The notes under the pieces were generated by a model. The model was not told where the DNA came from and did no database searches. It saw only the letters and a list, made by a program, of their open reading frames with translations. From Verrucomicrobiota bacterium (GTDB lineage: Bacteria; Verrucomicrobiota; Verrucomicrobiia; Verrucomicrobiales; Verrucomicrobiaceae), in NCBI GenBank assembly GCA_009885695.1, contig VFKE01000022.1, positions 1 through 64,000 of the forward strand: a DNA stretch of 64,000 nucleotides, read 5' to 3'. Numbering within the stretch: position 1 is the first letter of the stretch; each line of letters begins with the position of its first letter. Shown piece after piece: positions 6,781-57,448 of the stretch. The position numbers and the translations under genes are program-made.

Positions 6781-7428
6781 GTGCATCTGCTGCCCACTGC
6801 CCTGCTTCTCATTTCGTTCGCCTATCTCTGCGGCTCGCTGCCGTTTGGATATTGGGCGGGACGCTATAAGGGCATCGACATCCGCAAGCACGGCAGCGGG
6901 AACATCGGCGCGACCAATGTCATTCGCGTGCTGGGCAAGGGCATCGGGATTCCGATTTTCATTCTCGACATGCTCAAGGGTTTCTTACCCGTGGTCATGG
7001 CGGAGTGGTGGATGAGACACGGTGGCGCGGATCCGAACACCGCTTCGCTGGTGGCCGTGCTCTGCGCGGCGGCTGCGGTTCTCGGTCACATGTTCACCTT
7101 TTGGCTGGGTTTCAAAGGTGGCAAAGGCGTGGCAACTTCTGCGGGCGTGCTGCTGGGACTGGAACCGTTCTCGCTAGCATTCGGCCTGGTCGCCTGGGTC
7201 ATTGTGTTCAAGCTCACACGGTATGTGGCGCTGGCCTCCGTCGCTGTGGCGGTCACGCTGCCGATGGCGATGGCGCTGTTGATGATCGTGCGCGGCACGT
7301 TGAACTGGGTGCTGCTGGGACTGGGCATCGTAATGGGTGTGCTGGTCTTGGTGCGTCACCGTTCCAACATTGTGCGTTTGCTTAGCGGGACGGAAAATCG
7401 CTTTGCTGCGAAGAAAGGAGCGAAATGA
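6781..7428 (+). CDS. plsY: acyl-phosphate:glycerol-3-phosphate acyltransferase PlsY
   Basis: Integral membrane enzyme that adds the first acyl chain to glycerol-3-phosphate using acyl-phosphate. Family motifs are clear: YLCGSLPFGYWAGR, the KHGSGNIGATN motif, GHMFTFWLGFKGGKGVATS, and the C-terminal RHRSNIVRLLSGTENRF. There are about five hydrophobic helices. No ATG fits; a GTG at 6781 gives 215 aa, close to the family norm, and a GTG at 6766 is the alternative. The stop overlaps the gpsA ATG, which pairs the acyltransferase with the enzyme that makes its glycerol-3-phosphate substrate. Confidence 0.93.
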   Translation: MHLLPTALLLISFAYLCGSLPFGYWAGRYKGIDIRKHGSGNIGATNVIRVLGKGIGIPIFILDMLKGFLPVVMAEWWMRHGGADPNTASLVAVLCAAAAVLGHMFTFWLGFKGGKGVATSAGVLLGLEPFSLAFGLVAWVIVFKLTRYVALASVAVAVTLPMAMALLMIVRGTLNWVLLGLGIVMGVLVLVRHRSNIVRLLSGTENRFAAKKGAK

Positions 7429-8423
7429 AAAGTGTCATCGTGCTCGGAGCCGGAAGCTGGGGCACCGCACTGGCCGCAATGCTGGCGGAGCGTGGACTTC
7501 AAGTTCAACTCTGGGGTCGTGATGAAGTGTTGATGCGTGAAATTTCGGAGACGCGGAAAAATTCACGGTATTTACCTATGCTGGAAATTTCTCGTGAGAT
7601 TGAAGTGACGCACCGAATGAAAGATCTCAGAGCTGCTGATCTCGCGGTTTTCGTCATTCCTTCGAAGGGGCTGCGCTCGGTTGCGGGTGAGTTGAAGAAG
7701 GTCAACGTGTTCGGTGGAACGGAAGTGTTGCTCTCATGTACCAAGGGAATTGAACTGGAGACCGGCGAACAGATGTCGGAAATTATCGGGGAAACATTTC
7801 CCAAACATTTGCTGGCCGCGCTTTCGGGACCGAATCATGCGGAAGAAATCGCGCGGCGCCTGCCATCGGCTGCGGTCGTGGCCTCGGCCAGTCCCGAAGT
7901 GGCCGTTCAGCTCCAGAATGTTTTCACGCTGCCGTGGTTTCGTTGTTATACCAGCGATGACATCACGGGCGTGGAGTGGGCCGGGGCGATGAAGAATCCT
8001 TATGCCATCGCTGCGGGCATCGCGCGCGGATTGAACCTGGGCGACAACGCCATCGCGGCGCTGGTGACGCGGGCGCTGGCGGAGATGGTGCGATTCGGTG
8101 TGAAGCAGGGCGGAAGAGTGGAGACATTTTATGGATTGAGCGGAGTGGGCGATCTGGTGACGACGTGTTACTCGGAGCACAGCCGGAACAACCGCGTCGG
8201 GAGGCTGCTCGGGCAGGGGAAGAGTCTCGCCGAGATCATCGCCAGCACGCGCATGGTGGCGGAGGGGGTTCCGAACACGGAAAGCCTGTGGCGTTGCGCG
8301 AGAGAAATCGGAGCGAGCACGCCGCTGCTTGATGAAATTTACGCAGTTCTCTATCAGAACAAACCGCCCAAGGAAGCTTTGCGCGAGCTGCTGGGGCGTG
8401 ATCCGCGGCCGGAGGCGGACTAA
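7425..8423 (+). CDS. gpsA: glycerol-3-phosphate dehydrogenase [NAD(P)+] GpsA
   Basis: Cytoplasmic enzyme that reduces dihydroxyacetone phosphate to sn-glycerol-3-phosphate for phospholipid synthesis. The N-terminal Rossmann motif VLGAGSWGTALAAML (about 5-19), LLSCTKGIE, ALSGPNHAEE, the catalytic-lysine region AGAMKNPYAIAAG and the C-terminal GLSGVGDLVTTCYSEHSRN (19 residues) are all as in GpsA. The length (332 aa) is typical. It is coupled to plsY by an ATGA overlap. Its TAA stop is directly followed by a four-hairpin palindromic repeat. Confidence 0.96.
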   Translation: MKSVIVLGAGSWGTALAAMLAERGLQVQLWGRDEVLMREISETRKNSRYLPMLEISREIEVTHRMKDLRAADLAVFVIPSKGLRSVAGELKKVNVFGGTEVLLSCTKGIELETGEQMSEIIGETFPKHLLAALSGPNHAEEIARRLPSAAVVASASPEVAVQLQNVFTLPWFRCYTSDDITGVEWAGAMKNPYAIAAGIARGLNLGDNAIAALVTRALAEMVRFGVKQGGRVETFYGLSGVGDLVTTCYSEHSRNNRVGRLLGQGKSLAEIIASTRMVAEGVPNTESLWRCAREIGASTPLLDEIYAVLYQNKPPKEALRELLGRDPRPEAD

Positions 8424-8550
8424 GTGGCACCGGCTTGCAGCCGGTGTGTAACCCCGACATTCTGTCGGGGCAGCATTCGATACCAGTATACTCTCGGACA
8501 CGAGCCGGCAGAATGCCCGGCATACACACAGCCTGCAAGGCTGTGCCACT
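8423..8550. repeat. four-hairpin palindromic repeat (family A)
   Basis: The element has inverted ends: GTGGCAC at the left and GTGCCAC at the right. It contains four successive stem-loops: CACCGGCT..AGCCGGTG, CCCCGAC..GTCGGGG, a GCCGGC..GCCCGGC stem, and CACAGCC..GGCTGTG. It starts at the last base of the gpsA stop codon. It is the same family as the copy inside the PBP1C gene at 29722: both begin GTGGCAC, then CGG or AGG, then CTTGCAGCC. The stems differ by paired, compensating changes, which suggests that the folded form is what is conserved. From 8551 to 8632 I see nothing else. Confidence 0.82.
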
Positions 8551-8632: not shown

Positions 8633-9481
8633 TCATGTCGCGCGCAGCTTTTTGGAAAACAGTCCGTATTTCGGACTGAAGATATAACTGAGCATAAAGA
8701 TCGCGCCGAGCACCAGGACGATGGTGGAGCTGATGTGCCAGCCTAGGGGATAACTCAGAAAAAAGGCGGTGGTGGCACCGAAGGCGCCGACGAGTCCGCC
8801 TCCGATGAACATAGTGCGCGCGGAATTGGTGAAGAGATAAACGGTGGCTGCGGGCGCGACGAGGAGGCCGACGCTGAGAATGCAGCCGACAGCTTGAAGC
8901 GAGGTGATGAGCACCAGAATGATCATGGCGAAAAGTCCGTAGCTCAGAAGCTGCACGGGCACGCCGAGGCTGGCGGCGACGTTGGGCTCGAAGAGGTAGA
9001 TCAGGATCGGGCGCTGGAGGGCGATCAACGCCAGCACAGCGGCGGCACTGATGCCGAAGGCGAGCCAGAGGTCGGAGTCCGACATGCCGAGGATGCTGCC
9101 GAAGAGCCACTCATCGAGCTTCTGGCGCAGGTTGAGTTTGGAGAGAAGGATGTAGCCGCCGGCGAAGGCGGAGGTGTAGAGGATGCCGAGCGCGGTGTCT
9201 TCATCGATGCGGGAGGTGCGCGCCACGAAAAGCGAGCCAAGGCCGACGAACAGCGCGGCGAAGAGCGCGCCGACGAGCGCGCTCCATTGCGAAAGGCCGA
9301 CCAGCAGCACGGCGAGGGCAATGCCGGGAAACAACGCGTGGGAGAGTGTGTCCACTTTCAGCGCCGCCTTGCGCAGCACGACGAAGGCGCTGACGAAGCC
9401 GTTGCCAAAACCGAACAACACGCAAGCCAGCAGGGCGCGGCGGGCGATGGGCTCGTGGAAAAAGTCGCTGAAGGTGGACAC
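8633..9481 (-). CDS. znuB: zinc ABC transporter permease ZnuB
   Basis: ABC-3-family metal permease with about eight to nine hydrophobic helices. LFGFGNGFVSAFVVLRKAAL and DTLSHALFPGIALAVLL near the N-terminus are characteristic of ZnuB/MntB proteins, and VGCILSVGLLVAPAATVYLF is the usual late segment. The length (282 aa) is normal. It is the last gene of a five-gene minus-strand operon, 6 bases after znuC. The family also includes Mn and Fe permeases; zinc is preferred because of the substrate-binding protein and the His-rich partners. Confidence 0.92.
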   Translation of the reverse strand: MSTFSDFFHEPIARRALLACVLFGFGNGFVSAFVVLRKAALKVDTLSHALFPGIALAVLLVGLSQWSALVGALFAALFVGLGSLFVARTSRIDEDTALGILYTSAFAGGYILLSKLNLRQKLDEWLFGSILGMSDSDLWLAFGISAAAVLALIALQRPILIYLFEPNVAASLGVPVQLLSYGLFAMIILVLITSLQAVGCILSVGLLVAPAATVYLFTNSARTMFIGGGLVGAFGATTAFFLSYPLGWHISSTIVLVLGAIFMLSYIFSPKYGLFSKKLRAT

Positions 9482-13280: not shown

Positions 13281-14198
13281 ATGGCCAACAAACCCAAGAA
13301 AAAGTCCGTTAAACCCGCAGCCAAGAAAAAGGTTGCTCCAAAGAAGTCTGCTCCGAAAAAGGTTGCTCCAAAGAAGTCCGCTCCGAAGAAGCCTGTCCCA
13401 AAATCCAAGGCAGTGAAGCCGAAAAAGAAGGCCAAGCCCGCGCCCAAGAAGCCGAAGGCTAAAGCCGCCAACAAGCCGAAGGCCAAGGCGGCCAAGAAGA
13501 GTGCGCCCGCACCAAAGCCGGCCGTCAAACTGGTCAAGGCTGCTCCTGCTCCCGTCGCCAAAGGCAAGGCAGTCGCTCTCCAGAAGAACGGGCGTCCGCC
13601 TGTTTCCTATCCCGTCCGGCCGCCGACGCCGCCGCCCAAGCCAATCCGTGGCATTAGTATGGACGATCTTCCGGCGATTCCCGAAGGCAAGCGTCCGCCA
13701 TTGCCTGCTGTGTTCTTGAAAAAGCAGAAGCAGCGACTGCTTGATCTGCGCACTCATTTGCTTGAGGCCATCGAAGGTGTCGCCAATGAAAGCATCCGCA
13801 CGCGGCCGGAAGGCAGTGATGCCTCCGTGGGCGGAATGCACATGGGTGATGCGGGCAGCGACGCCTATGACCGCGATTTTGCGCTCAGTCTTTTGAGCAA
13901 GGAGCAGGATGCGCTGAATGAAATCCAGGACGCCCTGAGGCGCATTGACCAGCGCAGCTACGGCTACTGTGAGATGACTGGAAAGCGCATTCATGAGGAG
14001 CGTCTTGAGGCGCTGCCATTCACCCGGTTCACCCGTGAAGCGCAGGAGCAGATTGAGCGCAACCAGTTCGCCGGCGGACCCCGCCGCGTGGCCCCGCGCT
14101 CCGTCTTCAAGCTTGATGACGAAAGCGACTCGGAGGATGATGAAGAGGGTGAAGATGAAGCGCCCACGCCCGTGGCCAGTGAATCAACCGAATTGTGA
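13281..14198 (+). CDS. DksA/TraR-like regulator with lysine-rich histone-like N-terminal region, Cys-poor finger
   Basis: RNA-polymerase secondary-channel-type regulator of 305 aa. Residues 1 to about 100 are a low-complexity K/A/P tail of KKVAPKKSAPKK-type repeats, like bacterial histone-H1-like proteins. Residues about 140-225 form the DksA coiled coil with KEQDALNEIQDALRRID, and YGYCEMTGKRIHEERLEALP starts the finger. Of the four zinc cysteines only C230 remains: the second is T233 and the last pair is replaced by polar residues (FTRFTREAQEQ). This matches known zinc-independent DksA variants. It is divergent from the zinc-uptake operon and upstream of L33 and S18. The DNA encoding the tail contains 36-bp direct repeats near 13325-13396. 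Function in stringent or zinc stress is inferred. Confidence 0.85.
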   Translation: MANKPKKKSVKPAAKKKVAPKKSAPKKVAPKKSAPKKPVPKSKAVKPKKKAKPAPKKPKAKAANKPKAKAAKKSAPAPKPAVKLVKAAPAPVAKGKAVALQKNGRPPVSYPVRPPTPPPKPIRGISMDDLPAIPEGKRPPLPAVFLKKQKQRLLDLRTHLLEAIEGVANESIRTRPEGSDASVGGMHMGDAGSDAYDRDFALSLLSKEQDALNEIQDALRRIDQRSYGYCEMTGKRIHEERLEALPFTRFTREAQEQIERNQFAGGPRRVAPRSVFKLDDESDSEDDEEGEDEAPTPVASESTEL

Positions 14199-28840: not shown

Positions 28841-28927
28841 GTAGCAGCCGACGTGAGGAGGCTCTAATAATGTTTGCCTGCGCAATGATAAACTTCCAGA
28901 TATGAGCTTTTTCACGTCGGCTGCTAC
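28841..28927. repeat. palindromic repeat (family E) overlapping the pbpC start
   Basis: GTAGCAGCCGACGTGA at 28841-28856 is matched by a perfect 16-base inverted copy at 28912-28927. The element fills the gap between the alpha-2-macroglobulin stop (28831) and pbpC. It includes the pbpC ATG (28902), so its right arm encodes residues 4-9 of PBP1C and it must form part of the ribosome-binding region. Confidence 0.85.
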
Positions 28928-31319
28928 GAAGAAATTGAGATGGCTTTGGAAGCTGGGCCTGGGGTCGATCATCATGGCTGCGTGCGCATGGTGGGCGCTT
29001 CCCTGGGCTGTCCCGTTGCCGGAGAAACTGCTCCAGCCGCTTCAGGCATCGCCCACTTTTCTTGCCACCGATGGAACACCGCTGCGCCAGATGCTCAGTG
29101 CTGATGGTCAGCGCGTGGCATCTCTGGTGAGTTTGGAGGATATTCCCTATGACCTTATTCACGCCACGCTCGCAGCTGAGGACCGGCGGTACTTTTCGCA
29201 TGGCGGCGTGGATCTTGCCGCCATCGCCCGCGCGACGTGGGACAACCTGATGGCGCGTCGTGTCGTGTCCGGCGCCTCGACCATCACCCAGCAACTGGCG
29301 AAAATTTCCGCCGGTGGTCCCAGGCCGCGCCGCTTGTGGACAAAGGTGATCGAAGCTCTTCAGGCCCGACGCCTTGAAATGACCTGGAGCAAGGATCGCA
29401 TCCTCACAGAATATTTGAATCGCGTTGGCTACGGCAATCTGCTGACCGGCTGTGCCAGCGCGGCCCAAGGGTATTTGGACAAGCCGTTGCACGATCTTTC
29501 TCCAGCCGAATGCGCCTTCCTCGCTTCGCTGCCGCAGGCTCCGTCGCGGCTCAACCCCTTCAAAAATTTCAAGGCGGCGCAGACGCGGCAGAAGTTCGTT
29601 CTCGATGGCATGGTCGAGCGTGGCTGGCTCACTGCTGAGAAACGGTTGCTCGCGAGTGAAGAGAAAATTGTGTTGCAGCGTTTCAACGGCGGCTTCGAAG
29701 CACCGCACGCCATTGAGCTGGCTTGTGGCACAGGCTTGCAGCCTGTGTGTGGAACCGGCATTCTGCCGGCTGAAACGCAAGCGGGCAAAATGCCCGCTTT
29801 ACACACAGGTTCAAAACCTGTGCCACAAGTTGTACGCACCACGATCCTGCCAAATCTGCAGATGCGCGTGGAATCGATCATCGCCCGCCGGCTGGCCACG
29901 CTGCGAGATCGTCATGTGACACAAGCCGCTGCGGTGGTCATTGAGAATAAAACGGGCCGAGTGCTGGCGCTGGCCGGCTCCCGTGATTTTTTTTCCAATG
30001 AAGGCGGACAGATCAACGGCGCGTGGGCGCCTCATTCCGCAGGTTCGGCGGTGAAGCCCTTCACTTACCTGCTGGCGTTGCAGCGCGGGTTCACTCCCGC
30101 TTCGATCATCCCCGACCTGCCCATCGAATTCAGCACGCCCGGCGGCATTTACCGGCCGGAGAATTACGATCATCGCCACTACGGCCCGGTGACGTTGCGC
30201 GCGGCGCTGGGTGCTTCGTTGAACATTCCCGCCGTGCGAGTGTTGAAACAGATCGGCGGCGAGAAGGCATTGTATGACACGCTGCAAAACCTCGGCATCA
30301 CCTCGCTCACGGAGCCGCCGGATCATTACGGTCTGGGTCTAACCATTGGCAATGCGCCCATGCGACTTCTGGAACTGACTAACGCCTATGCCTGTCTCGC
30401 GCGCCTTGGTGAATACAAACCGTGGATCCTGCTGGCCGATGCGCCGGAAGCGGCGAACAGACGCGTGTTTCCACGCGAGGTGTGTTATCAGATTGCGGAC
30501 ATCCTTGGAGACAATCAGGCGCGCGTTCCAACCTTCGGTCCCTGGTCGGTCATCCGGCTGCCCTTCAAGGTCGCAGTGAAGACCGGCACCAGCCGGAACT
30601 ATCGCGACAACTGGACGCTCGGCTATTCGCCGGAGTTCACGGTGGGAGTGTGGGCGGGCAACTTCGATCATACGCCGATGGAAAACGTATCTGGCGTCAC
30701 GGGTGCGGGGCCGATCTTCCGTGACATTTTTCTGCGCCTGCGGGAATCGTCCGGTACCAGCTGGTTTGACGCACCGGCCGGGATCGTTCATGCAAAGATT
30801 GATCCGCGCACGGGACGTCGGGTGCCGGAAACCGGGATGGTGGTTCGCATGAGCCGGCCTGAGGTTTTTGTCAGCGGCTCGCTGCCCGACGAAGCAACGA
30901 TGAAGGATTACGAAGCGGAGTCGGGTCGTGCGTATCTGTCGGACGATTATGCAAAATGGATTTCCCAAGGAGATCAATGGCTGACGGGGCTTGTTTGCCT
31001 GAGGCCGACGACGGTGGCGTTACTGCCGCCGCGCATTCTTTCGCCCACGGATGGGAGCGTCTTGTTTCTGGATCCTGATCTGCCAGAAGAAGGTCGAAGG
31101 CTGTTGTTGCGGGCGCAGGAGAGTGAGTCGGTAAACTGGGATTCGCCGACGTTGCGCATCGACGGGAACGATGGTGCTCCGGTGGCATGGCTGATTCCGG
31201 GTCGTCATGAGATCACAGCGTTCCACCGGAAATCCGGCTTGCAGACGACGGTGTCGGTCGAGGTGCGGGATGCGTCGGAGCTCGCGGCACAGCGAAGGAG
31301 CAAGTTGCTGGTCAGGTGA
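28902..31319 (+). CDS. pbpC: penicillin-binding protein 1C
   Basis: Bifunctional peptidoglycan glycosyltransferase/transpeptidase, 805 aa. The N-terminal anchor helix is about residues 17-36. The GT51 domain shows E93 in AAEDRRYFSHGGVD and GASTITQQLAK. The transpeptidase has S382 (SAVK), S439-L-N441 and K560-T-G (VKTGTSRNYRDNW). A C-terminal PBP1C-type domain follows from about residue 690. Between the two catalytic domains, residues about 274-309 are encoded by an in-frame palindromic repeat (CGTGLQPVCGTGILPA and onward), not by conserved protein sequence. The start codon and first nine residues lie in a second repeat. It is paired with the upstream alpha-2-macroglobulin. Both catalytic centres look intact. 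Confidence 0.95.
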   Translation: MSFFTSAATKKLRWLWKLGLGSIIMAACAWWALPWAVPLPEKLLQPLQASPTFLATDGTPLRQMLSADGQRVASLVSLEDIPYDLIHATLAAEDRRYFSHGGVDLAAIARATWDNLMARRVVSGASTITQQLAKISAGGPRPRRLWTKVIEALQARRLEMTWSKDRILTEYLNRVGYGNLLTGCASAAQGYLDKPLHDLSPAECAFLASLPQAPSRLNPFKNFKAAQTRQKFVLDGMVERGWLTAEKRLLASEEKIVLQRFNGGFEAPHAIELACGTGLQPVCGTGILPAETQAGKMPALHTGSKPVPQVVRTTILPNLQMRVESIIARRLATLRDRHVTQAAAVVIENKTGRVLALAGSRDFFSNEGGQINGAWAPHSAGSAVKPFTYLLALQRGFTPASIIPDLPIEFSTPGGIYRPENYDHRHYGPVTLRAALGASLNIPAVRVLKQIGGEKALYDTLQNLGITSLTEPPDHYGLGLTIGNAPMRLLELTNAYACLARLGEYKPWILLADAPEAANRRVFPREVCYQIADILGDNQARVPTFGPWSVIRLPFKVAVKTGTSRNYRDNWTLGYSPEFTVGVWAGNFDHTPMENVSGVTGAGPIFRDIFLRLRESSGTSWFDAPAGIVHAKIDPRTGRRVPETGMVVRMSRPEVFVSGSLPDEATMKDYEAESGRAYLSDDYAKWISQGDQWLTGLVCLRPTTVALLPPRILSPTDGSVLFLDPDLPEEGRRLLLRAQESESVNWDSPTLRIDGNDGAPVAWLIPGRHEITAFHRKSGLQTTVSVEVRDASELAAQRRSKLLVR
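29722..29829. repeat. four-hairpin palindromic repeat (family A) in frame inside pbpC
   Basis: A 108-base element, exactly 36 codons, with 13-base perfect inverted ends (CTTGTGGCACAGG at the left). Four successive hairpins are visible: CACAGGCT..AGCCTGTG, CCGGCA..TGCCGG, GCGGGCA..TGCCCGC and CACAGGTT..AACCTGTG. It is related to the copy at 8423. Translation stays open through it, giving the phrase CGTGLQPVCGTGILPA and PALHTGSKPVPQ. Confidence 0.9.
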
Positions 31320-54708: not shown

Positions 54709-55988
54709 GCGGAAATTTTCTGTGGCGCGGAAAACAGTGCATCGGTTGCATTCGCTTTTGTTGCTGCAAAAAGCTGGAACACGATGCGCTGTGGGAAAAG
54801 GACGTGGCAGGTCACCGCAATGGTGAACCAGTAAACCGGCATCTCGATCAGCACCTGGCTGCATGGGATGAAAAGCAGAACGGGCAGCAGGCAGAAAAAT
54901 CCTCGGAAACGCTGCCGCATGGACACGAATGCAAGGGTGAAGACCAGCCCGGCAAAAAACAGCACGCCGAAGATTCCCATGTCCAGCCAGACGGAGATAA
55001 TCTGGTTGTGCGGCTGCCAATGATTGGTGCCGGCCCCGATGCCGTGTCCGAAAATGGTGGCGCGGCTTACCGCCTCCCAGCCATCCTGCAAGTCCTTCAC
55101 GCGCTCAGGCGATTTGATTTTTTCAAAATCGAGATCGTAGATCGCCTGCAAGCGGCCACCGACGTCTTCATTCGAGATAATGCCGCTGCGCGAGGATTGC
55201 GCGAGCATCGTCAAGCCCATGCCGCCGAGGGGAACGCTGAGCACGGCGATGATCAGCAGCCCGCGCATGCGCTCGCGAAAATGAATGGCAATGTAGGGTA
55301 GCACCATTACGGCAAAGACAGCCATGCCGCTGCGGCTGAGCGTGACGGCGATGGCGACGGTGGACACGCCGACCACGGCCATGTTCCACCAGAAATTCGG
55401 ATTTACTGTGAAGAGCACTCCAAGCAGGAGACAAATAAGAATTGGCGAGTGATTTGGGTCCTCCAGAAATCCTGACATTCTTCCCGAAATGCGTGTGAAA
55501 CTGCCATAGCCGAGCCATTCGTAAAAATTGGCGGCGGCGCATCCGATGATGATCGCGGTGGCGAGCCAGCGCACGGTCTCCATGCCGCGCTCTGTCGAGG
55601 GAATAAGCATCAGCAGAAGCGTGATGAGAAAATTCGCCAACATGATCATGATGAAAAATTGATGGGTTCCGAGAGAAACCACGGAGTAACGTTCCAGCGC
55701 CACGCAGTCGAAGATGCGCCACAAAAGAAAAACGAGCGGCAGGAGCGCGGGCCAGCAGAACTTGGGGCGGTTGCTGGCAATGATGACCAACAGCAGCGCG
55801 CCCATGCCCAATGTGAAATCACGCGGCTTGATGGGGAAGCCGGCATTTTCGTAATGCCAGGAAAGCCAGCAAGTGGTCAGGGGCGCCAGCATGGCGATGG
55901 CGGCAAGAGTCAGTGCTCGCTGTGGGAAAGTCCGTCGAGGGCACGCCGCCTCACTTAAATCATGAGCGGCCAGAGCCGGGATCATCAT
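54705..55988 (-). CDS. O-antigen polymerase/ligase-like membrane protein, copy 2
   Basis: 427 aa from the ATG at 55988, chosen because AGGGG lies 5 bases upstream and because the related copy starts at the same point of the alignment. The frame stays open 62 codons further upstream (to 56174), and an N-terminal extension cannot be excluded. It has about ten to twelve helices and the Wzy_C-like large loop, containing LQAIYDLDFEKIKSPERVKD and IFGHGIGAGTNHWQPHNQII, a WaaL/Wzy-like arrangement. About four in five residues match copy 1 by eye. It polymerises or ligates EPS repeat units. Confidence 0.87.
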   Translation of the reverse strand: MMIPALAAHDLSEAACPRRTFPQRALTLAAIAMLAPLTTCWLSWHYENAGFPIKPRDFTLGMGALLLVIIASNRPKFCWPALLPLVFLLWRIFDCVALERYSVVSLGTHQFFIMIMLANFLITLLLMLIPSTERGMETVRWLATAIIIGCAAANFYEWLGYGSFTRISGRMSGFLEDPNHSPILICLLLGVLFTVNPNFWWNMAVVGVSTVAIAVTLSRSGMAVFAVMVLPYIAIHFRERMRGLLIIAVLSVPLGGMGLTMLAQSSRSGIISNEDVGGRLQAIYDLDFEKIKSPERVKDLQDGWEAVSRATIFGHGIGAGTNHWQPHNQIISVWLDMGIFGVLFFAGLVFTLAFVSMRQRFRGFFCLLPVLLFIPCSQVLIEMPVYWFTIAVTCHVLFPQRIVFQLFAATKANATDALFSAPQKISA

Positions 55989-56170: not shown

Positions 56171-57448
56171 TCAATTGGCGGCGAAAGAAACGGACTCGCT
56201 AGAGGCCGGTGCCTGACTGCGGGCTGGTGCGATGAGCCGGAACACGATGCGCTGCGGAAAAAGGACGTGGCAGGCCACCGCGATGGTGAACCAGTAAACT
56301 GGAATCTCGATGAGCACCTGGCTGCATGGGATGAAAAGCAGCACGGGCAGCAGGCAGAAAAATCCGCGGAAACGCTGCCGCATGGAAAAGAAAACGAGGG
56401 TGAAAATTAAGCCAAAAAAAAACAGAACGCCCAAGATTCCAGTGTCCAGCCAGAGGGCGACGATCTGGTTATGCGGCCGCCATTTATTGGCACCGGTGCC
56501 GGTGCCGTGCCCAAACAGGATGGCGCGTCTCACGGCCTCCCAGCCGTCCTGCAAGTCCTTCGCGCGCTCAGGCGATTTGATTTTTTCAAAATCGAGATCG
56601 TAGATCGCCTGGAGGCGGCTGTCCACGTCCGCGTTGGCGACGATGCCACTGCGCGAGGTTTGCGCGAGCATGGTCAACCCCACACCGGCGAGGGGAATCG
56701 CGAGCGCGGCGATGAGCAGCAGGCCGCGCGCACGCTCGCGGAAATGAAGCGCGATGTAAGGCAGAACCATCACGGCGAAGACGGCCATGCCGCTGCGGCT
56801 GAGCGTTAGGGCGATTGCCAGAGCTGCGACGCCGCTGGCGGCCATGTTCCACCAGAAATTCGGATTCACCGTGAAGAGCACGCCCAGCAGCAGGCAGGAG
56901 AGGATTGGCGAGGTGTTCGGGTCTTCCAGGAAGCCGGACATGCGCCCGGGAATCAGAGTGAAACTGGCAGCGCCGAGCCATTCATAAAAATTGGCCGCGG
57001 CGCATCCGATGATGATCGCGGTCGCGAGCCAGCGCGCCGTTTCCATGCCGCGCTCCGCGCAGAGAATGAGAATAAACAAACCCGTGACGAGGAAGTTCGC
57101 CAGCATGATCATGACGTAAATTGCTTGAGTGCCGAACGACACCACGGAATAGCGCTCGAGAACCGCGGCGTCGAAAATGCGCGTCATCAGAAAGAGCAAC
57201 GGCAGCAGCGCCGGCCAGCAGAACCTGGGGCGGTTGCAGGCGATGACCAGCAGGAGCAGCGTGCCCATGCCCAGCGTGAAGTCGCGCGGCTTGACGGGAA
57301 AGCCTGCTTTCTCGTAGTGCCACGTGAGCCAGCAGGTGGTGATCGGCACCAGCATGGCGATGGCGAAGAGCGTTAGTGCCCGCGAACGGAAAGTCCAGCG
57401 GGGGATCGTCGCGGCGCCGAAACCGGAAACTGCCAGCTCCGCGATCAT
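56171..57448 (-). CDS. O-antigen polymerase/ligase-like membrane protein, copy 1
   Basis: 425 aa from the ATG at 57448, supported by a strong AGGAGG 7 bases upstream and by an ATGA overlap with the flippase stop. The helix pattern matches copy 2, and the loop has LQAIYDLDFEKIKSPERAKD and LFGHGTGTGANKWRPHNQIV, with the HNQ motif typical of WaaL/Wzy. The last 16 residues differ completely from copy 2. It is likely the polymerase for the lipid-linked repeat exported by the MurJ-like flippase upstream. Confidence 0.89.
   Translation of the reverse strand: MIAELAVSGFGAATIPRWTFRSRALTLFAIAMLVPITTCWLTWHYEKAGFPVKPRDFTLGMGTLLLLVIACNRPRFCWPALLPLLFLMTRIFDAAVLERYSVVSFGTQAIYVMIMLANFLVTGLFILILCAERGMETARWLATAIIIGCAAANFYEWLGAASFTLIPGRMSGFLEDPNTSPILSCLLLGVLFTVNPNFWWNMAASGVAALAIALTLSRSGMAVFAVMVLPYIALHFRERARGLLLIAALAIPLAGVGLTMLAQTSRSGIVANADVDSRLQAIYDLDFEKIKSPERAKDLQDGWEAVRRAILFGHGTGTGANKWRPHNQIVALWLDTGILGVLFFFGLIFTLVFFSMRQRFRGFFCLLPVLLFIPCSQVLIEIPVYWFTIAVACHVLFPQRIVFRLIAPARSQAPASSESVSFAAN

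Follow-up and report, generated by a model that had tools for sequence, protein, structure and literature searches.

Probable REPINs after gpsA and inside pbpC in a Verrucomicrobiaceae genome, their candidate RAYT partner and related transposases embedded in host genes

The window analysed here, a stretch of 64,000 nucleotides (contig VFKE01000022.1 of assembly GCA_009885695.1, Verrucomicrobiaceae), carries two copies of an inverted repeat, hereafter referred to as family A. The first is placed between the 3' ends of gpsA and a gene for an ABC-3 family permease and the second lies inside pbpC. The features of the two loci are as follows.

7425..8423, forward strand: gpsA (open reading frame, Pfam), stopping 1 base ahead of the first element
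8424..8470, forward strand: REP unit 1 after gpsA; GTGG tag, hairpin 1 at 8428-8446, hairpin 2 at 8452-8470; covariance model R1 71.6 bits, E 4.9e-16
8471..8502, no strand: spacer between the gpsA-side units, without a match to the unit model
8503..8549, reverse strand: REP unit 2 after gpsA, inverted; hairpin 2 at 8503-8521, hairpin 1 at 8527-8545, CCAC end; R1 65.2 bits, E 1.8e-14
8633..9481, reverse strand: ABC-3 family permease (open reading frame, Pfam PF00950), convergent with gpsA
28902..31319, forward strand: pbpC open reading frame of 805 aa, open across the second element
29725..29771, forward strand: REP unit 1 inside pbpC; hairpins at 29729-29747 and 29753-29771; R1 71.2 bits
29780..29826, reverse strand: REP unit 2 inside pbpC, inverted; hairpins at 29780-29798 and 29804-29822; R1 65.4 bits

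The exact limits of the two elements are 8424-8549 and 29725-29826; the original prediction had located the former correctly, at 8423-8550, but with a surplus base at either end. Both are composed of a 47-nt unit present twice in opposite orientations, and each unit comprises a GTGG tag, a first hairpin (8 bp, 3-nt loop), TGTAG or a similar sequence, and a second hairpin (8 bp, 3-nt loop). The two copies had been described as having the same number of hairpins, and either was found to hold four, arranged as two inverted units; the reported differences between their stems, CACCGGCTTGCAGCCGGTG against CACAGGCTTGCAGCCTGTG and CCCCGACATTCTGTCGGGG against CCGGCATTCTGCCGG, were present exactly as claimed. 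In the second hairpin of the pbpC copy an A-C mismatch takes the place of one outer pair (unit positions 30/46). Folding as single-stranded DNA gave z = -6.2 for the gpsA copy and -9.0 for the pbpC copy, and within the window the covariance model detected no units beyond these four (E 5e-16 to 2e-14), the best of the other matches having E = 2.6. The window also holds a 300-bp direct repeat, 84% identical (54762-55061 and 56225-56524), and a short tandem repeat with a 15-bp step (13325-13399).

Ten places identified with a strict pattern served as the seed for a genome-wide collection; a 16-unit alignment was converted into the covariance model R1, and a sequence-only model, R2, was used as the control. 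At E <= 0.1, at least 119 (R1) and at least 95 (R2) family-A units were identified in the 3.47-Mb assembly, both values being lower bounds since 150 of the 2716 candidates were scored. The repeat is thus dispersed and multi-copy, as REPs are, and GTGG opens most of the units as a GTAG-like tag at one end of the hairpin. Among the units, 25 inverted doublets of 97-126 bp with sharp GTGG/CCAC ends and unrelated flanks were listed, and a heterodimer type combining GGCTTTCAGAGCC with GGTTTGCAACC was found repeatedly at unrelated sites; therefore the doublet and not the single unit appears to spread, as in REPINs, where two inverted REPs spread as one. For the gpsA copy, a clean empty site was looked for without success; the same-genus genome G001 has gpsA without the element, but synteny is broken downstream.

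Covariation was examined in 82 units gathered by the structure-blind, sequence-only model, and the paired stem changes expected from the original prediction hold genome-wide, with 95.4% of the stem cells paired as against 86.3% after shuffling. Independent variation of the stem positions, which would have contradicted that prediction, was not seen: cells with double-sided changes number 85 against 16.2 +/- 3.2 in the shuffled sets, the independent events being fewer than these cells because shuffling keeps the relatedness of the copies and because subfamilies exist. The covariation score is 0.212, compared with 0.084 +/- 0.006 for shuffled sets and at most 0.046 for slid partners, and 9 of the 15 stem pairs are altered on both sides. 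At several stem positions the standard pairs come in three or four types (GC 47, CG 9, UA 5 and AU 2 at columns 41/50, for instance), which takes more than a single double change. Along with the pairing, the letters of the tag and the loop (GTGG, CATTCTG) are conserved. Watson-Crick pairs account for 1027 of the 1094 stem cells, G-T for 17 (1.6%) and A-C for 5. A constraint on RNA would permit G-U on one strand, and the near symmetry of the strands indicates hairpins of DNA, or else hairpin-templated repair; the low level of wobble pairs favours a DNA hairpin over RNA.

Paired change had been taken as a sign of selection on structure. The restoration of pairing stands, with the caution that hairpin-templated repair without functional selection could be an alternative route to it. 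The repeats would then be mobile, with the paired changes a by-product of hairpin-templated correction (quasi-palindrome mutagenesis in replication) and not of selection for a recognised structure, an explanation which the near strand symmetry and the scarcity of G-T pairs fit equally well. However, the conserved GTGG and CATTCTG and the recurring subfamily doublets are not predicted by repair alone, and this explanation is regarded as unlikely.

By a codon-usage scan of 55 sites, at least 12 copies lie in frames that are open and coding, the others being without a clear coding frame, so that the copies are mostly extragenic, as is usual for REPs. Ten of the host proteins were confirmed by Pfam (UvrA, Mfd, TsaD, PbpC, MutS, an FtsX/MacB-type permease, a U32 peptidase, HemC, an AcrB-type transporter and SufD) and two further hosts, a second UvrA and a heparinase-like protein, were named by reading. 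Contig C216 of the same genome carries a single frame of 1952 aa with two tandem UvrA-like halves and REP-encoded inserts (L137:2054-7909). The reading frame GTGLQPV is used by 9 of the 12 intragenic copies, though the consensus can also be read through in other frames. Lengths divisible by three were considered for the intragenic doublets and rejected: from GTGG to CCAC the lengths are 0, 1 or 2 modulo 3, and junction bases must therefore complete the frame. The pbpC insert, translated in silico as CGTGLQPVCGTGILPAETQAGKMPALHTGSKPVP, has the Transgly and Transpeptidase domains on its opposite sides (Pfam). It is missing from the relatives, and a short remnant resembling a decayed single hairpin is present in G001 (L142, G001:C347), consistent with an in-frame loss of the interior of the element; in view of this remnant, the insertion probably predates the split of the two same-genus species. 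Intragenic REPs, above all in repair genes, were reported in 2013 for Opitutus terrae (PMC3733652), and the copies in uvrA, mfd and mutS repeat that pattern.

Searches of the same genome yielded 17 Y1_Tnp and 16 REP_Tyr_transpos matches. The RAYT/Y1-transposase gene anticipated elsewhere in the genome was located on contig C151 (8950-9534), after argH, bracketed by two inverted family-A units. Its product carries the HUH motif VMPNHVH and the Tyr motif EYIAQNP, and belongs to Pfam Y1_Tnp (PF01797). A profile of 37 sequences matched TnpA-REP 4er8 in the PDB (E 2e-7) and the fold match was to the same entry; a phmmer search of one RAYT against the PDB was not significant (E 0.11), and the score against NCBIfam NF047646 was 75.3 bits (cut-off 80). 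RAYT relatives are mostly from Verrucomicrobiota. The closest homologues of the C151 RAYT, in the genomes G006, G012, G002 and G018 (51-59% identity), have family-A units on both sides in each case, so that a RAYT flanked by REPs, the arrangement of a REPtron, is present in five genomes; in all five the RAYT frame continues into a Nudix-type protein (translations read; Pfam also for the own genome). Among the 34 stretches searched, units were detected at the homologues of the C151 RAYT, in L307 and L308, which had been chosen for the search on account of holding copies, and weakly at one RAYT locus of G005 (L201).

At E <= 1e-6 the copy numbers are 76 in the own genome (G000), 83 in G005, 70 in G006, 19 in G018, 15 in G002 and 6 in G012, with 2 copies in the same-genus G001 and none in the remaining 22 genomes. 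Such patchiness within the family and even the genus agrees with recent expansion and loss. The link with the RAYT does not hold in G005, whose 83 copies occur without a close full-length homologue of the C151 RAYT (best match 48%; a truncated match 56%). The association in five genomes supports this RAYT as the putative mobiliser of the family-A doublets.

The original prediction had offered mobile REPs recognised by RAYT-type transposases or a structured RNA; the former part is sustained by the GTGG hairpins, the dispersed doublets and the flanked RAYT, and the latter is disfavoured (17 G-T among 1094 cells, and no match at gathering score in an Rfam search of the window). A structured RNA, or a bidirectional terminator or mRNA stabiliser acting post-transcription and retained because it affects the genes nearby, would suit the gpsA-side copy, which sits between convergent 3' ends and folds strongly, and such roles of REPs have been proposed earlier (PMC3733652). 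Nevertheless, besides the lack of an Rfam match and the near absence of G-U from the stems, many copies lie within coding sequence and the copy number is patchy even inside one genus, which makes this reading very improbable; a structured RNA as the main reading of the repeats was rejected on the first two of these points. It is scarcely credible that the doublets are miniature elements moved by a short IS200-type TnpA of the same genome instead of the RAYT: the top PF01797 scores belong to five short Y1 transposase genes and one of them, on C130, has a family-A copy some 1 kb away, but that copy belongs to a separate gene, tsaD. At the other four, no more than a weak unit match was seen in the stretch retrieved, in contrast to the units on both sides of the C151 RAYT and of its homologues.

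The gpsA and pbpC elements are thus very probably REPINs, i.e. miniature non-autonomous mobile elements in which two REP units of two hairpins each stand inverted to one another, with the HUH/Y1 RAYT of C151 as their mobiliser. The evidence for mobile family-A REPINs comes from sequence comparison, in which no movement was seen, and recognition, cleavage and transposition by the RAYT are proposed as follows. The RAYT would recognise the GTGG-tagged hairpin on single-stranded DNA and cut at the edge of the unit, and the doublet would be copied or moved in one piece. Mobility would be kept only by stems that pair, so that drift would proceed by paired changes, and new copies would persist between genes, or inside genes if the frame is kept.

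Whole RAYT genes were also observed embedded in the frames of host genes, in many assemblies that are mostly MAGs. A RAYT is in frame in leucyl-tRNA synthetase (LeuRS) in 12 genomes, in the large subunit of carbamoyl-phosphate synthase (CarB) in 12 and in HsdR in 7, and in other hosts too, with host domains on either side. The loci, together with examples of a second REPIN family discussed below, are as follows.

C121 of the own genome, L081:45-3353: LeuRS-embedded RAYT, frame of 1102 aa
L297 (G011), L235, L238, L239, L240, L251, L260, L265, L266, L275, L286: other LeuRS-embedded RAYTs
L213, L214, L215, L217, L218, L219, L221, L223, L224, L227, L229, L231: CarB-embedded RAYTs
C176 of the own genome, L080:505-4386: HsdR-embedded RAYT, frame of 1293 aa
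L220, L222, L228, L232, L254, L256: other HsdR-embedded RAYTs
L236, L295 (deaminase-like); L301, L302 (glycosyltransferase-like); L247, L255, L268, L285, L296: other host frames, named by reading only
C44:15513-15581, C55:17294-17352, C99:2425-2486, C106:1253-1314: second REPIN family of the own genome, examples

Frames extending at least 100 aa both ways were found at 35 of 80 named RAYT loci (CarB 12, LeuRS 10, HsdR 6, plus single cases), which is not an unbiased rate because two of the three query sequences were embedded RAYTs. The insertion point is constant within each host gene. REP-like inverted repeats clearly bound 27 of the 31 embedded RAYTs tested (scores 15-52; shuffles at most 9-12), three being marginal and one negative. 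The LeuRS-embedded RAYT of the own genome has perfect 28-bp inverted ends, the core of which has 25 occurrences in the genome, several of them as inverted pairs, against 0 in the reversed control; a second REPIN family, GGGAGCGCGGGCGTCTCGCCCGTG, found at 25 places with at most 3 mismatches, is identical to these ends. No second leucyl-tRNA synthetase was found in this assembly, which is 92% complete. Phylogenetic analysis placed the CarB residents and the Nudix-joined RAYTs, including the family-A partner, in one group (SH-aLRT 99), and host labels change 4 (CarB), 4 (LeuRS) and 3 (HsdR) times on the tree as against 11.6, 11.6 and 6.9 after shuffling, by a quick method on a tree with many weak branches. 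Among the relatives of the window, alignment across the LeuRS insert was obtained in G000 and G011 only; for the CarB insert no alignment spans the RAYT part of the query plus CarB, and two genomes are without a match at the threshold. The AlphaFold model of the LeuRS-RAYT fusion was poor (mean pLDDT 49). The catalytic motifs are largely kept (HUH in 47 of 48 embedded RAYTs, YxxxNP in 46 of 48), and the embedded RAYTs may be translated as fusions, catalytically active and favoured in their persistence.

It is an evenly balanced proposition that REP/RAYT elements live in essential genes of Verrucomicrobiota and some neighbours as translated in-frame domains, resembling inteins without splicing, and that in many genomes a RAYT bounded by REPs of its own occupies one and the same permissive stretch of LeuRS, CarB or HsdR, being expressed within the host protein, hard to lose and a seed of REPIN families like that of the window. 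No earlier report of whole RAYT genes embedded in host genes was found in the open-access full-text literature. A survey of the TnpA-Y1 family in 2018 left out proteins that were longer than expected, regarding them as fused genes or faulty annotations (PMC6006769), and the embedded RAYTs may have escaped notice for this reason. Two-hairpin units, the GTGG tag and intragenic copies characterise this REPIN family; the embedded transposases, seen in many assemblies, are the unexpected part. There is no evidence for mobility of RAYT genes according to PMC8266576. If true, transposases in leucyl-tRNA synthetase and carbamoyl-phosphate synthase would represent a new route of persistence for a transposase gene and would reveal the tolerance of essential enzymes to insertions. 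The spread of REPs, an unsolved question, becomes testable with a matched transposase in the same surroundings in several genera, clean covariation and in-frame copies in core genes.

Of the known systems closest to family A, the REPINs of Pseudomonas fluorescens SBW25 (PMC3116915) are likewise inverted REP doublets forming a hairpin, in which compensatory changes were called common, and the group I REP shares the likeness of a GTGG start, with CTTGC in the loop; unlike SBW25, the units described here have two tandem hairpins, many copies are intragenic and the doublets measure 97-126 bp, against 71 bp between the 16-mers. The GTAG repeats of Opitutus terrae (PMC3733652) are also verrucomicrobial REPs, and some of their copies are intragenic, with both uvrA genes among the hosts. 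The nearest is the GTAG-20 family, which resembles family A in its tag: most members have it mutated to GTGG, a variant that is accepted for the GTAG tag (PMC3733652). TnpA-REP of E. coli (4er8; PMC8266576) shares the HUH and Tyr motifs with the C151 RAYT and is its nearest solved structure by profile and fold, but the identity is about 17% and several relatives sit inside host proteins. Rickettsia palindromic elements (PMC3733652) are similarly short, palindromic and translated in frame within unrelated proteins; such CGTC repeats are without a transposase partner, whereas family A is set apart from them by its GTGG tag and its associated RAYT.
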